In this document: in pieces, positions 1-27,740 of the stretch
Layout of the letters: each line of letters opens with the position of its first letter
How positions within the stretch are numbered: position 1 is the first letter of the stretch
Origin: a virus
IMG/VR virus record: IMGVR_UViG_3300010885_075204
Coordinates: 1 to 31,844 of that record
Strand: one strand, 5' to 3'
Length of the DNA: 31,844 bases
The notes under the pieces: model-generated
What the model was told of the DNA's origin: nothing
Databases searched by the model: none
Seen by the model: the letters and a program-made list of their open reading frames with translations, nothing else
Made by a program: the position numbers and the translations under genes

Positions 1-336
1 AGCACCAGTTGGACCAGTTGGACCATCAGAACCAGGAGCACCAGTTGGACCAGTTGGACCATCGGCACCAGGAGCACCATCATTACCATCGGCACCAGGA
101 GCACCAGTTGGACCGGTTGGACCATCCGCGCCAGGAGCACCATCATTACCATCGGCACCAGGAGCACCAGTTGGACCAGTTGGACCAGTTGGACCATCCG
201 CGCCAGGAGCACCATCATTACCATCGGCACCAGGAGCACCAGTTGGACCAGTCGGACCATCCGCACCAGGAGCACCATCGTTACCATCAGCACCAGGAGC
301 ACCATCGTTACCATCAGCACCTGCTGTACCTTGAAT
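1..336 (-). repeat. Collagen Gly-X-Y coding repeats, block 2
   Basis: Near-identical 9-base units (ggaccagtt, ggagcacca, ggaccatcc and similar) are arranged in higher-order units of about 27-45 bases. Read on the minus strand they encode uninterrupted Gly-X-Y triplets rich in Pro, Ala, Asp, Asn and Thr, up to the window edge. The near-identity of the units suggests recent expansion by slippage or recombination. Confidence 0.9.
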
Positions 337-2328
337 ACCGCTTGGTTCGTAAAGTTCGAAATGCGAGCCGTTAGTTGTTCCCCAGACTCTTTGTGGACTT
401 CCGGTTACCTGATTGCTATGAAATGTTAGCGCAGATCCACTACCATTACCGGTACCAGTCACTGCTCCATTCCCTATTGCAGGTTGCGATAAAACCGAAT
501 ATGCAAGATGACCATTTCCGGAACCTGCCGCAAAAATATTAAATGTACCCGCAAGAGTATTCATATCTCCCGGTGCGACCAAGTTTGTAAGAACCGGTCT
601 ACCATTAGCTGAAAGCGTAGAAACTGCTCCGGTGGCGGATTCAATAAAGCCCGTAAGATTTGCAAAACCACCTTGAATACCTTGAGCACCAGTAATACCT
701 TGAATACCTTGAGCACCAGTAATACCTTGAATACCCTGGATACCCTGTACGCCTTGAGCGCCTTGAGCACCGCTTCCTCCGCTACCGGTTCCCGATGCAC
801 CTTGAGTACCTTGAGTTCCGGTACCAGTAGCACCTTGAGTTCCGGCACCAGTAGTACCTTGAGTTCCGGTATTCCCTTGAATACCTTGTTCACCTTGTGT
901 ACCTTGAGTACCTTGAGCTCCGCCGCCGGGTCCTATTTGCCCTTGAATACCTTGAATACCTTGAGTACCCTGAGTTCCAGCGCCAGTAGAACCTTGAATA
1001 CCCTGAGAACCAAGTGTACCTTGGATGCCTTGAGTTCCGGTACCAGTAGTACCTTGTGTGCCTTGGATGCCTTGAATACCTTGGATGCCTTGAGCTCCGC
1101 TGCCTGCTCCGCCGCTTCCCGATGCACCTTGAATACCTTGGATACCCTGAGAACCAACTGTACCTTGAACACCTTGGACGCCTTGAGTTCCGGTACCAGT
1201 AGTACCTTGTGTGCCTTGGATACCCTGGATACCCTGGACGCCTTGCAACGGTGTTGTTTCTGTTCCAGTCGAATAATTAATAACGTGTCCGTAGGTATCA
1301 AAACCAAGAGCCGTAACGTAAGTGCGACTCACCGCAGTTAAATTTGCAACAGAAGATGTATCAGAATGCTCAACAGTTACTGCTGCAGTTTCTGTTCCAG
1401 ATCCTGATACTGAAATACCGCCTCCAGCAGTAACAGTTGCCACATAATTTCCGCTTGTTTGGGTATCAAGTGGAATAGGAGTATCAAATGTAACATCGCC
1501 GGTTACTCTTAGAGTTCCTTGAACATGAAGAGTTTTTGTGGGAGTAAGTGTTCCAATACCAACTCTATTATTTGTCGAATCAACAAACAATGTATTTGTA
1601 TCAACGGTAAGATTATCATTGATCGTAACATTATCCTGAAAAATTGCATCATCGGCAAATGTTTTAATGCCATTAAATGTTGTGTCTCCGTCCTTAATCT
1701 CGCTCAATGCAGTAATTACATCATGATTAAAACGAACAATTTCTTTTGAAACACTCACCGATTGAACAATATTTTCTCCATTATCGGATGCATCATTTAA
1801 AACAATTTGTTTTAAAAGAAATCTAGTCGACCCTTGACTGATGTAATCCGTTCCTGGTTTAAACGATCCAGTAATATCATATACAACTAATTTAATAAAG
1901 GTACCTGTAACAACGGTACACGAAAATACCTTTGCTGTTGCTCCGGATGCGCCATTGCCGCTTGTACCAGATGAATCAGTACCCGTAATAAGGCCACCAA
2001 CACCCAATGCAACGGGAGTGTATACACTGGAAGAACCCGAAAGCTCGATTATTAGAGTTGATTTTTGAACGCTTCGATCAATGAAATTACCCGATACATT
2101 TTTAACTGTAAGAACAGTACCATCAATCGAAACAACGGTCGCAGTCGATCCGGAATGTGAACCTGTAACGGTTTGAGTTGCTGTGTAGTTACCAGTTTCA
2201 GCAAGGGTGATCGTTTTCAGGACCAGGTCGGAAGGCAACTGGGCAGTCGTGCCAAGGTCAGCAGAAATGGCATTACTCTTTTGGCGCCATGTTTCAAATG
2301 TATCTGTACGTTCGACTTCGGTAGGCAT
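1..2328 (-). CDS. Collagen-like tail fibre protein, C-terminus outside window
   Basis: This frame starts at ATG 2328 and stays open for 776 codons to the window edge, so the C-terminal end is missing. The N-terminus (MPTEVERTDTFETWRQKSN) looks like the attachment region of T4-like marine phage fibres. Residues of about 250-290 carry a fibre-type NRVGIGTLTPTKTLHV motif. Two collagen-like blocks follow. Residues about 362-553 are Gly-X-Gln-rich (GIQGIQGTQG type). Residues about 664-776 are classical Gly-X-Y (GADGNDGAPGADGPTGPTG type). A globular segment of about 110 residues separates them. Such blocks form trimeric rods, so the protein is probably a trimeric fibre or whisker with its host-binding tip beyond the left edge. 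It is the last gene of the baseplate operon seen here, 12 bases after the 72-residue gene. The fibre role is inferred from composition and context. Confidence 0.88.
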   Translation of the reverse strand, partial: MPTEVERTDTFETWRQKSNAISADLGTTAQLPSDLVLKTITLAETGNYTATQTVTGSHSGSTATVVSIDGTVLTVKNVSGNFIDRSVQKSTLIIELSGSSSVYTPVALGVGGLITGTDSSGTSGNGASGATAKVFSCTVVTGTFIKLVVYDITGSFKPGTDYISQGSTRFLLKQIVLNDASDNGENIVQSVSVSKEIVRFNHDVITALSEIKDGDTTFNGIKTFADDAIFQDNVTINDNLTVDTNTLFVDSTNNRVGIGTLTPTKTLHVQGTLRVTGDVTFDTPIPLDTQTSGNYVATVTAGGGISVSGSGTETAAVTVEHSDTSSVANLTAVSRTYVTALGFDTYGHVINYSTGTETTPLQGVQGIQGIQGTQGTTGTGTQGVQGVQGTVGSQGIQGIQGASGSGGAGSGAQGIQGIQGIQGTQGTTGTGTQGIQGTLGSQGIQGSTGAGTQGTQGIQGIQGQIGPGGGAQGTQGTQGEQGIQGNTGTQGTTGAGTQGATGTGTQGTQGASGTGSGGSGAQGAQGVQGIQGIQGITGAQGIQGITGAQGIQGGFANLTGFIESATGAVSTLSANGRPVLTNLVAPGDMNTLAGTFNIFAAGSGNGHLAYSVLSQPAIGNGAVTGTGNGSGSALTFHSNQVTGSPQRVWGTTNGSHFELYEPSGIQGTAGADGNDGAPGADGNDGAPGADGPTGPTGAPGADGNDGAPGADGPTGPTGPTGAPGADGNDGAPGADGPTGPTGAPGADGNDGAPGADGPTGPTGAPGSDGPTGPTGA
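670..1247 (-). repeat. Collagen-like Gly-X-Gln coding repeats, block 1
   Basis: Tandem 9-base units (ttgaatacc, ttgagtacc, ttggatacc and similar) encode G-[I/T/V/A]-Q triplets on the minus strand. They are interrupted by short Gly/Ser/Thr-rich patches such as TGTGTQG and SGSGGAG. The codon set and composition differ from block 2, which suggests a separate origin or separate expansion. Confidence 0.88.
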
Positions 2329-2340
2329 ATTAAAATTATT

Positions 2341-23581: not shown

Positions 23582-24154
23582 ATGTCAAATATCCAAGAAC
23601 TTAAAGGTTTAGTAAATAGACGATCGGGTCTTGCTCATCAAAACAGATTCTTAGTGCGAATTACTCCTCCGCAAAAAATTTCAGTGAATGGATCGGATTT
23701 TAACATTCTATGTGAAAATTGTACTCTTCCGGGTAGACAAATTACAACCTTTGACTATCAACTATTGCGCCAATCAATCAAGGTTCCGAATGGCTACATA
23801 AACGAAGAAGTCGCTTTTTCGTTTTTATTGACCAATGATTTTTATGTTAAAAAGATATTCGATTCTTGGTCGACATCGGTGATTAATTTTGACAATTATC
23901 GAGCAAATTATCTTGAAGATTACAAAGGTACGATTCAAATATATCAGTTAGACAAACATGAAAATAAGGTTTACGGCGTGGAACTAATGAATGCATTTCC
24001 AACGTCACTAAATAGTATTCCTTTAGACAATAATTCAGAAAATACAGTTCAACGATTTGCAGTATCAATGGCATACGAAGATTTCTTCGTCTTGCCACTA
24101 AATTATAAACCAGCTCCCGAGTCACTTTCGAACGCGAAGCCGCTCGAAGAATAA
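23582..24154 (+). CDS. Tail-tube-fold protein (gp19/gp54-like)
   Basis: The 190-residue product begins with SGLAHQNRFLVRITPP, then DFNILCENCTLPGRQITTFD, then IKVPNGYINEEVAFSFLLTN. The rest carries DFYVKKIFDSWSTSVINFDN and DYKGTIQIYQL. This order is the tail-tube/tube-initiator pattern of myoviruses: a membrane- and solvent-facing beta sandwich with an NRF start and a LPG loop. T4 gp19 is 163 and gp54 is 320 residues. It may be a second tube-like protein at the baseplate or a tail-terminating ring rather than the main tube, since it sits with gp26 and the tape measure. No Shine-Dalgarno sequence is seen. Confidence 0.7.
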   Translation: MSNIQELKGLVNRRSGLAHQNRFLVRITPPQKISVNGSDFNILCENCTLPGRQITTFDYQLLRQSIKVPNGYINEEVAFSFLLTNDFYVKKIFDSWSTSVINFDNYRANYLEDYKGTIQIYQLDKHENKVYGVELMNAFPTSLNSIPLDNNSENTVQRFAVSMAYEDFFVLPLNYKPAPESLSNAKPLEE

Positions 24155-24198: not shown

Positions 24199-24906
24199 AT
24201 GCCACTACCAATCCTAGAAACACCGAAATATGAAATGACTCTTCCGTCTACCGGAAAAAAGTTAACATATCGTCCCTACCTCGTAAAAGAAGAAAAACTT
24301 TTAATGATTGCAATCGAATCTGAAGACCAGAAGCAGATCATGCAGGCAATGAAAGATACTGTTGCTTCCTGCACATTTAATAAAATTGATCCAAATTCAT
24401 TGGCTATTTTTGATCTGGAATACATCTTTCTGAAACTAAGAGCCAAGTCTGTTGGCGAAATTGCAAAGATCGGTGTTAAATGCTCAAGTTGTGAAAAAAC
24501 AACATCCTGCGAGGTAAACATCGACGACATTAAAATGGATGTTGAAGAAAAACCATCGAACAAGATTAAACTGAGCGATAAAATCGGAGTGATTATGCGC
24601 TGGCCAAGCGTTGAATTCGTAACCGACATGGGAGCCAAGTCAAAAACCGATCAGAAATCCGCAGCATTCGATGTTGTGGTTCATTGCATCGAAGCAATTT
24701 TTGATGAAAAAAAGATTTATCCAGCATCAGAGCAATCGCAAGAAGAAATGTTAGAATTCATTGAATCATTGAATCAGTTACAATTCCAACAGATCCAAGA
24801 GTTTATCGAAAAAATGCCAAAACTTGAAAAGGAAATATCCTTTACATGCAAGCATTGCCAGAAAGATAACAAAGTTGTTCTAAAAGGACTCCAGAATTTT
24901 TTCTAA
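24199..24906 (+). CDS. 26: Baseplate hub assembly protein gp26
   Basis: The 235-residue product begins ILETPKYEMTLPSTGKKLTY and continues RPYLVKEEKLLMIAIES, then SCTFNKIDPNSLAIFDLEYI and FLKLRAKSVGE. This is the gp26 family pattern of T4-like phages (T4 gp26 is 208). Two CxxC pairs, C95/C98 (CSSC) and C217/C220 (CKHC), flank the helical middle and look like a zinc ribbon. It ends LKGLQNFF with TTT-TTC-TAA-TAG. The last two sense codons with the base before them form a -1 slippery heptamer (24897-24903), so a fraction of ribosomes may continue into the overlapping downstream frame. In T4, gp26 acts in building the hub rather than as a major virion part. Confidence 0.88.
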   Translation: MPLPILETPKYEMTLPSTGKKLTYRPYLVKEEKLLMIAIESEDQKQIMQAMKDTVASCTFNKIDPNSLAIFDLEYIFLKLRAKSVGEIAKIGVKCSSCEKTTSCEVNIDDIKMDVEEKPSNKIKLSDKIGVIMRWPSVEFVTDMGAKSKTDQKSAAFDVVVHCIEAIFDEKKIYPASEQSQEEMLEFIESLNQLQFQQIQEFIEKMPKLEKEISFTCKHCQKDNKVVLKGLQNFF

Positions 24907-25091
24907 TAGCCCTCTCGCATGATACACTCGTGAATCATTACCAAACAAATTTTGCAATGATGCAGCATCACAAATACAGTCTAACAGAACTTGATAGCAT
25001 GATGCCATGGGAGAGGGAGATATACGTTTCTCTTTTAGTTGACCATATTAAAGAAGAAAACGAAAGAGCCAAGAAGAAATTTCAAAAATAA
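24870..25091 (+). CDS. gp26 -1 frame extension (tail/hub assembly, gp51-like position)
   Basis: From the slippery site this frame reads LIALSHDTLVNHYQTNFAMM, then QHHKYSLTELDSMMPWEREI and YVSLLVDHIKEENERAKKKF, ending QK at TAA 25089. The 62 codons after the shift would extend gp26 to about 297 residues. The text is protein-like along its whole length, including the part before the only internal ATGs (24957 and 24960), which have no ribosome binding site. Independent initiation would give just 44 residues. Its position between gp26 and the tape-measure gene mirrors the second half of the G/GT tail chaperones of other phages. A separate gp51-type product from ATG 24957 is the alternative. Confidence 0.72.
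   Translation, partial: QSCSKRTPEFFLIALSHDTLVNHYQTNFAMMQHHKYSLTELDSMMPWEREIYVSLLVDHIKEENERAKKKFQK
24897..24903 (+). promoter_or_regulatory. Putative -1 ribosomal frameshift site T_TTT_TTC
   Basis: The heptamer is in the X-XXY-YYZ register relative to gp26 and is followed at once by TAA TAG. Slipping back one base moves ribosomes into a frame open to 25088. That frame opens only at 24870, after a TAA at 24867-24869, so the overlap is about 30 bases, as expected for programmed frameshifting. I see no strong stem-loop just downstream; the small cac/gtg pairing near 24925-24932 is unconvincing. Confidence 0.68.
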
Positions 25092-25097
25092 ACGACC

Positions 25098-27740
25098 ATG
25101 CCTGAAAAAGACAAAACATTTCAAGATATTTTATCGGAACTTCAAATTTCGAACAAAGGTAGTTTTAACCAAGTATTTCAGCTTGAAGGTATCCAAAAGT
25201 CGTTGCTTATTACTGAACAAGCTACGACAGCAAGCAGCGATGCCAATAAAACACAGAATAGTGAAATGGTTGCTCGTTTAAATGAGTTGGTAAATAATTC
25301 GGAAAAAAGCTTGAATTGTTTAACTAAGATTCTTGCGAACACGCCTAAAAAAGGATCGCAAAAACCTACAGCAAACGATAAGGAAATTGTGGCTGGGTTA
25401 TCCTTTATTTCAAATTATGCAGAATCAAATGGTATTAGTTTAATTGCAATTGAAGAATATTTGAAGAATATTGAAATTTCAAATGAAGAAATTATGGTAC
25501 GCGTTGGCTCCTTAGTTGATGCCGCAAACAGAGGTAGTTCTCTGAAAGATTTAGAAAATAACAAGGAGATGCTTGAAATATTTGAAAAAATTCGAGAGGC
25601 TCTAGAAAACAAGAAAAAAGAAGAGGAGGAAAAGAACGAAAAACCGGAAAAACCAGAAATGAGTTGGGGTGCATGGGCGGTTGCGGTGGGTGCAGCTCTA
25701 TTGGGTTTTGTTACAAGCTTTGTTGCAGAATTGGCAATCCAAGCCAAAGAGGTATTCAAAAGCCTCACTAAACTTTTAGACTTTCGTCCATTACTAGCAA
25801 AAATTAAAGGTTCAAAGTTTGTTGCTGAAATAACAAAAGCATTTAAAAGTATTGTTGAAATTGGAGAACGTCTTTCTTCTAAAACTAAAGCATTGTATCA
25901 AACAATTAAACAATCAAAATTTGGTACGTTTATAACTAAATCATTCGATGATATAATTGGAATTGTTGAGCGTTTTGGTTCTAAGGTTAGAGCATTGTAT
26001 CAAATAATAAAACGATCTGCATTGATTGGTTACATTACAGAATTGTTTCAAGGTTTTACGAATTTAGGAAAGGGTATTTCCGAAGCATTTGAGCCGGTCA
26101 TAAAAAAATTCAATCTTATAAAAAGAGTATTATCTATCGGTACTGAATCTACTAGTATTGTAGGAAAATTAATTAATTCTTTTAAAGGTATTAGTTCTTT
26201 TTTCGGTAAAATGAAACTTGTTACAGCTGTAATGTTTAGATTTGGTAAAGCATTAGGTTCGTTTATTGGTAAATTAAATGTTCCGTTTCAGGTGATCATG
26301 GGTATATTCGATTCGATTACTGGCTTCATTGATGGTTTTGCAAAAACTGAAGGCAATTTCATAGATAAACTTTTGGGAGGGCTCAGAGGCGGTGTTAAAA
26401 AATTCCTTGATGGTCTTATTGGTGGTATCTTTAATATCATGAAGAGTATTGTTTCATGGGCTGCCGGAGCATTGGGTTTTAAAGATTTAGAAAAAATGCT
26501 TGACAGTTTTAATTTTGGCGACATCGTTGATAAAATAGGTATTGGGCTGGGTTTTGTAATGAAAGCAGCCGGAGGCATATTTAAGGCACTCGGAAATGTT
26601 AGTGGTATCTTTGGTAAATTTGCCGGTGCATTTGGTAGTATTCTTGGCAAAATAGCTTGGCCAATTACCGCAATCATTGGTTTATTTGATTTAGTTACGG
26701 GGTTTATCGATGGTTTTCAGAAAACTGAAGGCAGTTTTATTGATAAAATTATAGGAGGGCTTAAAAATGGGCTTTCAAACCTAGTTGACGGTCTTATTGG
26801 AGGACTCCTTAATATGCTGAAGGGCGGAGTTTCATGGATCGCGGGAGCATTAGGTTTCGACGGTATTGCTGCAGCTTTGGATAGTTTTAGTTTCACTGAT
26901 ATTATCAAGAATGCAATTAATGGAGTAATCGATACTGTTGTAACATTTTTTACGGATCAATTCGCCTTTATTAGTTCAATATTCTACGGGCTAAAAGACC
27001 TTTTTAGCGGAGAAAAGGATCTTAAATCCATATTTTTAGATGTTATGGGTGGTTTAGTTAAAACGCTTTTATCTCCGTTAAATGCAATCTCAGGATTATT
27101 TGGATTCGATCTTACAAAGAAGGCGCTCGATCTACTTGGTCTGCCTTCAAGCGGAAGCAGTGGTGCAGCAGGTGCAGCAGGTGCAGCAGGTGCAGCCGGT
27201 GAGTCTTCGCCGATTACTGCTGCTCCATTAGGTGCATCTGAAGATCCATTAGGACTTAAACCAAGTAAAATTACTGCTGCTCCATTAGGTGCATCTGAAG
27301 ATCCATTTGGTCTTAAATCTCTCGATGGACTAAAGTCTGCGGTTAATACGATTGCTGAAGAATCACCTCTTAGATCGACAAGAGTGACGGATGCTGATAT
27401 GTTAGACGCATACGAGCAGACGGCGTTGCTCGATGAAACACAAAAAGCTGTGTTAAACTCCGATGAAGAGTTGCTTAACACTTATGCCAGAACAGCGCAA
27501 CTTGAACGAAGTGATTCGCCGATTGTTGGCGCCGAAATGAATGCACTTGAAACCGATACTGCTCGTACCGAAGACGCTTACACAAATGCAGCAAATGCAG
27601 CAATGATTAGTGCATCTTCGGGTGGTGGAGGTGGTGGTTCTTCAAGCCGAACCATCAACAACGACAATAAATCTGTTACATATAATTCGAACAACATTCC
27701 CGACCGTACCTCCTGGATGTTGACTCCACAATTTTACTAA
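25098..27740 (+). CDS. Putative tail tape measure / large tail structural protein (880 aa)
   Basis: The 880-residue product has the build of a tape measure. Residues 1-185 are polar and coiled-coil-like, ending in a charged stretch (ENKKKEEEEKNEKPEKPE). A hydrophobic segment lies at about 189-212 (WAVAVGAALLGFVTSFVAEL). Then come helical repeats: three units of about 34 residues at 236-327 and two of 126 residues starting near 402 and 528 (TGFIDGFAKTEGNFIDKLLG against TGFIDGFQKTEGSFIDKIIG). An Ala-Gly linker (689-702) and a duplicated ITAAPLGASEDPxGLK lead to a polar C-terminus with a Gly6 run. It follows the gp26 frameshift gene, as tape measures follow tail chaperones. At about 0.15 nm per residue it would span roughly 130 nm. 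T4's equivalent is gp29; no direct match was recognised. Confidence 0.72.
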   Translation: MPEKDKTFQDILSELQISNKGSFNQVFQLEGIQKSLLITEQATTASSDANKTQNSEMVARLNELVNNSEKSLNCLTKILANTPKKGSQKPTANDKEIVAGLSFISNYAESNGISLIAIEEYLKNIEISNEEIMVRVGSLVDAANRGSSLKDLENNKEMLEIFEKIREALENKKKEEEEKNEKPEKPEMSWGAWAVAVGAALLGFVTSFVAELAIQAKEVFKSLTKLLDFRPLLAKIKGSKFVAEITKAFKSIVEIGERLSSKTKALYQTIKQSKFGTFITKSFDDIIGIVERFGSKVRALYQIIKRSALIGYITELFQGFTNLGKGISEAFEPVIKKFNLIKRVLSIGTESTSIVGKLINSFKGISSFFGKMKLVTAVMFRFGKALGSFIGKLNVPFQVIMGIFDSITGFIDGFAKTEGNFIDKLLGGLRGGVKKFLDGLIGGIFNIMKSIVSWAAGALGFKDLEKMLDSFNFGDIVDKIGIGLGFVMKAAGGIFKALGNVSGIFGKFAGAFGSILGKIAWPITAIIGLFDLVTGFIDGFQKTEGSFIDKIIGGLKNGLSNLVDGLIGGLLNMLKGGVSWIAGALGFDGIAAALDSFSFTDIIKNAINGVIDTVVTFFTDQFAFISSIFYGLKDLFSGEKDLKSIFLDVMGGLVKTLLSPLNAISGLFGFDLTKKALDLLGLPSSGSSGAAGAAGAAGAAGESSPITAAPLGASEDPLGLKPSKITAAPLGASEDPFGLKSLDGLKSAVNTIAEESPLRSTRVTDADMLDAYEQTALLDETQKAVLNSDEELLNTYARTAQLERSDSPIVGAEMNALETDTARTEDAYTNAANAAMISASSGGGGGGSSSRTINNDNKSVTYNSNNIPDRTSWMLTPQFY
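25803..26006 (+). repeat. Tandem 34-residue helical repeats in the tape measure
   Basis: Two full units align without gaps: IKGSKFVAEITKAF ... SSKTKALYQT and IKQSKFGTFITKSF ... GSKVRALYQI. A third partial unit (IKRSALIGYITELF) follows to about 26078. The regular length fits an elongated helical ruler. Confidence 0.75.
26301..26915 (+). repeat. Two 126-residue repeats in the tape measure
   Basis: Residues from about 402 and about 528 align at a constant offset of 126 residues (378 bases). Shared blocks are FDxxTGFIDGFxKTEGxFID, the G-L-x-G-L/V-rich stretch, DGLIGGxxNxxK, SWxAGALGF and LDSFxFxDI. The DNA is clearly diverged, so this is an old duplication. Confidence 0.8.
27162..27200 (+). repeat. 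9-base microsatellite encoding Gly-Ala-Ala
   Basis: Four copies of ggtgcagca, the last with a c change, encode (GAA)4 in a flexible linker of the tape measure. Copy number may vary by slippage. The neighbouring DNA holds a second short duplication (gctgctccattaggtgcatc at about 27218 and 27276). Confidence 0.8.

Follow-up and report, generated by a model that had tools for sequence, protein, structure and literature searches.

The gp26 gene of a T4-like virus record very probably encodes a tail assembly chaperone in two forms, the long one made through a −1 frameshift, as in a G/GT-type pair. The window analyzed here is the whole 31,844-base record, a fragment of a genome with T4-like tail genes. 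Our reading is built on sequence anatomy, conservation, homology and a predicted fold, from which we infer frameshifting, its efficiency, the effect of the stimulator and the binding partners. In the proposed mechanism, most ribosomes would halt at TAA 24904 and yield the short form (TAC-N), while a minority, held back at an internal SD-like site, would slip with two Phe tRNAs from T_TTT_TTC to TTT_TTT. Continuing in the −1 frame, these ribosomes would add 62 residues to the short form and so yield TAC-NC, the counterpart of gpGT. If lambda is a guide, the N-part may coat the tape-measure protein and the C-part may recruit the tail tube subunit, with both parts departing before tail completion. 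The −1 frameshift had been proposed in a preliminary description of this DNA, and the sequence checks reported below support it, with the fusion protein as a prediction.

Anatomy of the gp26 junction

The features of the locus, with the evidence on which each assignment is based, are as follows.
23582..24154, + strand: tail tube protein gene, directly 5′ of gp26 (phrog_45 tail tube, E 2.3e-33)
24199..24906, + strand: gp26, putative short tail assembly chaperone (TAC-N, G analogue), 235 aa (PF12322, phrog_150, AF2 model)
24882..24888, + strand: SD-like element AAAAGGA, 8-9 nt 5′ of the heptamer, probable frameshift stimulator (anti-SD duplex)
24897..24903, + strand: slippery heptamer T TTT TTC in the gp26 register
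24904..24909, + strand: tandem 0-frame stops TAA TAG, end of the short form
24903..25091, + strand: −1 frame extension, 62 codons plus stop (putative TAC-C, T analogue; the "gp51" of cyanophages and kin; phrog_634)
25098..27740, + strand: probable tape measure gene, 880 aa (mainly position and length)

In the ORF reading of the window, gp26 ends with the codons CAG AAT TTT TTC, followed by TAA TAG. The first T of the heptamer is codon position 3 and is followed by TTT and TTC, a register that suits tandem tRNA slippage. The −1 frame, closed upstream by a stop at 24867-24869, is open from 24870, which is 27 nt 5′ of the heptamer, through 25088; its TAA (25089-25091) is close to the start of the probable tape-measure gene, which the end of the extension adjoins. 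There are 62 post-slip codons (24903-25088), 18 of which are ahead of ATG 24957. The preliminary description had given the heptamer, the stops, the −1 frame and both codon counts, and every coordinate proved right. GTG 24930 is an earlier candidate start codon in the −1 frame, and the conserved LIALSHD residues of the extension stand 5′ of this GTG as well.

Conservation of the heptamer among relatives

Retention of the heptamer in relatives, which the preliminary description had named as a check, was seen in every locus fetched from viral contigs. All 98 of these loci had T_TTT_TTN in this position and the extension in the −1 frame; 80 of them were found via the extension (the best 80 of 598 candidates encoding a relative) and 18 via gp26, none being picked on the heptamer. 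One of the 98 (L082) is a copy of the window's own stretch and two (L002 and L091) are one contig. Among named phages, 18 of 21 had the heptamer in register. These comprised 16 of the 17 phages in the first set (P-SSM2, ValKK3, AS-zj, phage 65, phiM7, RHph_Y68, RHph_I1_18, S-N03, Mosig, Melnitz, Cr30, YB07, Milchi, S-CRM01, P-HM1 and OLIVR6) and, among four further phages, Aeh1 (L131), where the −1 extension is present, and ACP17; the other two, phiA8-29 and SP-15, were without it. T_TTT_TTN was thus absent in three of the 21, VPALA, phiA8-29 and SP-15. VPALA (L118 3214) and phiA8-29 (L136) carry CTT TTC near the end of the gp26-like ORF together with an extension-like −1 frame, and slippage there may use CTT TTC instead. 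What follows the gp26-like ORF of SP-15 in the −1 frame looks unlike the extension.

At the protein level the extension is conserved, as seen from its match to phrog_634 (gp51, "baseplate hub assembly catalyst"; E 1e-28). With a cut-off of E<=1, tblastn found extension-like sequence in 643 of the 50,697 phage records. The occurrence of an in-register heptamer with an open −1 frame is not due to chance.

None of the gp26 or gp51 features in 17 annotated records is a joined CDS. In 14 of the 17 named phages sharing the layout, the extension has a CDS of its own; in the record of phage 65 (L122) it appears only as a hypothetical fragment of 26 residues, and those of AS-zj (L104) and VPALA list nothing there, although AS-zj does have the extension. 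Such annotation favors a different reading, in which the extension is a separate small gene (annotated gp51) that starts at GTG 24930 or ATG 24957 and is coupled to the gp26 stop, and the SD-like site could hold ribosomes for such a restart. The preliminary description had pointed to the lack of a ribosome binding site before ATG 24957, which is a weak argument. An SD-like site at <= −4 kcal/mol was present at only 2 of the 19 window gene starts tested (24199, 25098 and 22971 being among those surveyed), versus 54 of 64 gp26 starts in relatives, so a missing SD site in this window says little against a start codon.

Selection on the junction nucleotides

The junction nucleotides themselves speak against a separate start. 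We compared 83 junctions under 85% identity, a set to which 16 named phages were admitted only for having the heptamer and from which VPALA was omitted. From the upstream stop to extension residue 8, the −1 frame was devoid of ATG, GTG and TTG in 68 of the 83, so that, as the preliminary description had anticipated, the frame is kept 5′ of any start codon in most relatives, and the conserved extension residues start right at the heptamer. In 14 of the 83 junctions, a stop directly precedes the heptamer and the −1 frame opens only there. A start codon was present in the remaining 15 junctions, which taken alone are compatible with a separate start.

The synonymous sites of the heptamer are also frozen. 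The codon before TTT ended in T in 83/83 junctions (AGT 32, GAT 28, AAT 20, TCT 2 and GCT 1), and the first Phe codon was TTT in 83/83, compared with 481 TTT and 209 TTC among the 690 Phe codons in gp26 bodies. The odds of this by chance are ~10^-18 for the T-ending codon and ~10^-13 for TTT, with the sequences treated as independent though they are related. A 0-frame stop followed within 0-2 codons of the heptamer in 75 of the 83 junctions and after 8-9 codons in the other 8. Together with the in-frame gp51 proteins described below, which carry the N-part, these features make a separately started extension very improbable.

The same frame outcome would arise if RNA polymerase, rather than the ribosome, slipped on the T6 run and the mRNA lost one base, and a conserved homopolymer run is what such slippage would use. 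The base after the T run was C in 50 junctions, T in 21, A in 10 and G in 2, indicating that the run is not lengthened in most relatives. Efficient polymerase slippage calls for a longer run than these six bases or little more. The ribosome is favored by the conserved SD-like element, whose spacing is about right, and we regard the transcriptional explanation as, if anything, slightly less probable still than the separate gene. Ribosomal −1 frameshifting is the reading adopted below.

An SD-like element upstream of the heptamer

The AAAAGGA element of the window forms an anti-SD duplex of −5.3 kcal/mol. Across the 83 junctions, anti-SD complementarity was strongest in 9-nt windows whose first base stood 18 to 11 nt ahead of the heptamer, with a mean peak of −5.8 kcal/mol versus an upstream background of −0.78, the lowest of 190 positions. 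Synonymous resampling gave −4.69 +/- 0.16 against the observed −5.97, with none of 400 trials as low, and 69 of the 83 single junctions were stronger than their own resampled mean. The SD-like element is therefore conserved and stronger than codon choice accounts for. A spacing of 9-14 nt is quoted for −1 stimulators (PMC5009743), and the 8-9 nt found here reaches the lower limit of that range or falls just short of it.

The scarcity of SD sites at gene starts bears on this element in a further way. Because few gene starts in the window's phage have an SD, the host ribosomes may respond little to an internal one. Of 8 gp26 starts inspected in relatives, several of which are near ones, 6 had the same lack. 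Such scarcity may indicate a host that makes little use of the SD in initiation, for instance a member of the Bacteroidota. A slip-site SD at <= −4 occurred in 43 of 54 junctions with a gp26-start SD and in 8 of 11 without, which is no clear difference.

Stimulatory RNA structure was not evident in the window in three folding tests (z +0.73, +0.34 and −0.57). In the relatives, 60-nt windows downstream of the heptamer had a mean z of −0.95 at +0 and −1.68 at +5, compared with −0.58, −0.33 and +0.29 for controls, and cruder shuffles gave −1.75 versus −0.54 for the control; the relatives are somewhat more structured 3′ of the heptamer than at control places. Among 76 of the 83 junctions, which share the same register, no convincing common covarying helix was found. 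When the best 15 helices were each compared with 200 shuffles, one six-pair helix was narrowly above all of them (0.137 versus a maximum of 0.132, with 59% of cells paired), a result to be weighed against the large number of candidates and the relatedness of the sequences. The other 14 did not exceed the shuffles.

Identity of the genes

Profile searches placed gp26 in PF12322 (E 1.2e-62) and in phrog_150 "baseplate hub" (E 6.5e-65), and the extension, besides its phrog_634 match, also matched the last 50 positions of phrog_150 (E 1.1e-6). The short form thus bears the gp26 profile and the extension the gp51 C-terminal profile of the T4 gp26/gp51 family. NCBIfam gave weak matches only with gp26, far under the curated cut-offs, and a PDB sequence search with the gp26 profile returned only two matches, weak and unrelated.

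Tail genes usually follow the order tube, chaperone, tape measure. gp26 lies between the tail tube gene, which also matched Phage_TTP_2 at an E of 1.7e-5, under the Pfam cut-off, and the probable tape-measure gene, the downstream half of this placement being given mainly by position and length. The 880-aa ORF matched tape-measure PHROGs only weakly (E 0.0012 and 0.0027) and scored better with phrog_27688 (unknown; 1.8e-15) and phrog_315 (called endolysin; 1e-7), and because of this its tape-measure role is taken mainly from its position and length. By blastp, it matched the ValKK3 and Cr30 counterparts at E 0.02-0.03 only and had no useful match to T4 gp29 (E 2.8).

At the other end of the window (1-2340, minus strand), a frame of 780 codons that is still open where the contig ends encodes long GXY repeats of the collagen type (GPTGPTGAPGADGNDGAPGADG...) and is probably part of a fiber or adhesin.

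Predicted fold of gp26

An AF2 model of the window's gp26 (65 sequences, pLDDT 91) was compared with the PDB. With 720 chains aligned by VIA-align, the top rows were 2ob9 (Z 7.8; 83 residues, 4.0 A), 3fgx (7.7) and YqbN 3klu (6.9), followed by a next row at 2.9; by VIA-align's own note, a Z under 8 may mean only a common arrangement. All three matches fell inside gp26 residues 1-95, with 83-85 residues aligned at 6-12% sequence identity. Foldseek against the PDB was not significant alone, listing 2ob9 second and third (E 0.98, prob 0.57). Of the three, only 2ob9, the HK97 tail assembly chaperone, is titled as a tail assembly chaperone; 3fgx and 3klu we take to be phage chaperone relatives. The Z gap to the next rows, combined with the gene position, makes a persuasive case for a predicted TAC-N fold of the gp26 N-domain, and the best match of this domain agrees with the chaperone assignment in the preliminary description. 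At 235 aa, gp26 is about twice the length of the HK97 chaperone, and its further part bears cysteine pairs.

Relationship to T4 gp26 and gp51

In T4, genes 26 and 51 are separate and divergent, as they are in Aes012, Thanatos-2 and Phi1. We aligned 17 predicted fusions by hhalign with six in-frame gp51-type proteins (T4, Aes012, Thanatos-2, Phi1, CP220 and TDDLMA), and the two groups matched end to end over 245 columns (prob 99.7%, E 2e-25). With four T4-type gp26 proteins, the fusions aligned in the N-part only (prob 99.7%, E 5e-26), and T4-type gp26 and the gp51 N-part were themselves mutually related (prob 98.8%). Controls gave 0.2% for reversed gp51, 0.0% for tail tube and 0.1-0.9% for mismatched domains. 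T4 gp51 matched phrog_150 with residues 3-248 of its 249 (E 2.6e-84), and therefore this family includes both parts, gp26 and the extension. Since the fusion aligns with gp51 end to end and with gp26 only in the N-part, T4 gp51 corresponds to the long form, with an in-frame gene of its own, and T4 gp26 to the short one. The preliminary description had tied gp26 and gp51 to the G/GT paradigm; our alignments bear out this link, which had already been published. The window, itself a genome fragment, differs from the T4-style arrangement, the C-part after gp26 being found only in the −1 frame.

This reading accounts for two earlier reports. In one paper (PMC3037559), cyanophage and marine vibriophage gp51 is described as being without about 200 residues, and Aeh1 as being without gp51. 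On the fused-form reading, the missing part of gp51 would be gp26 itself, joined via frameshifting, and in Aeh1 the extension is present as well. A T4 review (PMC3004832) refers to genetic studies that put gp26 in the finished hub, reports gp51 to be absent from the particle, and in its table gives both as hub assembly chaperones. Such a place for gp26 would speak against a pure chaperone that leaves.

Gene pairs in place of frameshifting

Other phages appear to encode the two forms as two genes. In Vibrio phage TDDLMA, a probable tape-measure gene is preceded by two gp26-like genes in head-to-tail order, an arrangement in which a frameshift is unneeded. By profile matches, the pair is as follows.
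L113 1311-1961: short gene (E 2.1e-7)
L113 1964-2653: long gene with the gp51 end (E 1.4e-6)

In phiKT1024 (L129 1848-3190), the long form is preceded by an adjacent hypothetical gene that resembles the short gene in size and order. The long form was present in 6 Vibrio phage records, and a viral-contig scan with it confirmed no relative. In Campylobacter phage CP220, too, the short form (1.7e-10) and the long form (0.0024) each had a match of their own.

A 29-row tree united both forms from the T4 group (97/95) and, in a different place, both forms from TDDLMA and CP220 (90/85). Several branches of this tree are weak, and the end branches or some rows are very long; the well-supported branches alone force two changes per label. 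This suggests at least two switches between chaperone encodings.

Discussion

Frameshifting is reportedly kept in several T4-like groups, with T4 using genes 26 and 51, as the abstract of a 2022 study by Vladimirov et al. is said to state. That study, on the tail assembly chaperones of T4-like phages (Vladimirov, Gautam and Davidson 2022, Virology 566:9-15), appears to concern the same system as the window's, and it is the reference given in the Adele paper (PMC12846349) for −1 slippage at poly-T sites in the short-form genes of T4-like phages. An excerpt on PRFect adds that some T4-like phages have a short and a fused long gene in place of frameshifting. The principle of a frameshifted chaperone in T4-like phages is already published, and the window's locus fits this known system, whereas T4 and its near kin differ in having two separate genes. 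In our literature search, where the 2022 paper is known via citations, no title or abstract start reported the window's slip site. What may go beyond the published work is the SD-like element, together with the extension in Aeh1 and the tandem pair of the Vibrio phages.

Among other systems, the predicted short/long chaperone pair resembles lambda G/GT in its −1 shift, and the heptamer T_TTT_TTN is unlike lambda's G_GGA_AAG. The portion of a lambda G/GT account that we drew on describes a short and a long chaperone, made via a low-level −1 shift, as needed in tail assembly (PMC5009743). In Vandenendeviridae and Andersonviridae, which are other phage families, a poly-T −1 site is described near the end of the short-form gene, as here, with the motif GTTTTT (PMC12846349, in part).

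We tentatively propose, at somewhat below even probability, that the chaperone pair of T4-like phages is switchable between a frameshift, with its poly-T heptamer and conserved internal SD, and duplicated genes. The gene pair would then have arisen at least twice, in the T4 group with its divergent 26 and 51 and in a group of Vibrio and Campylobacter phages, where the Vibrio tandem looks like a frozen step after duplication. Such a mix of frameshift and gene-pair solutions would allow the purpose of the frameshift to be tested, for example whether it serves a fixed short:long ratio.
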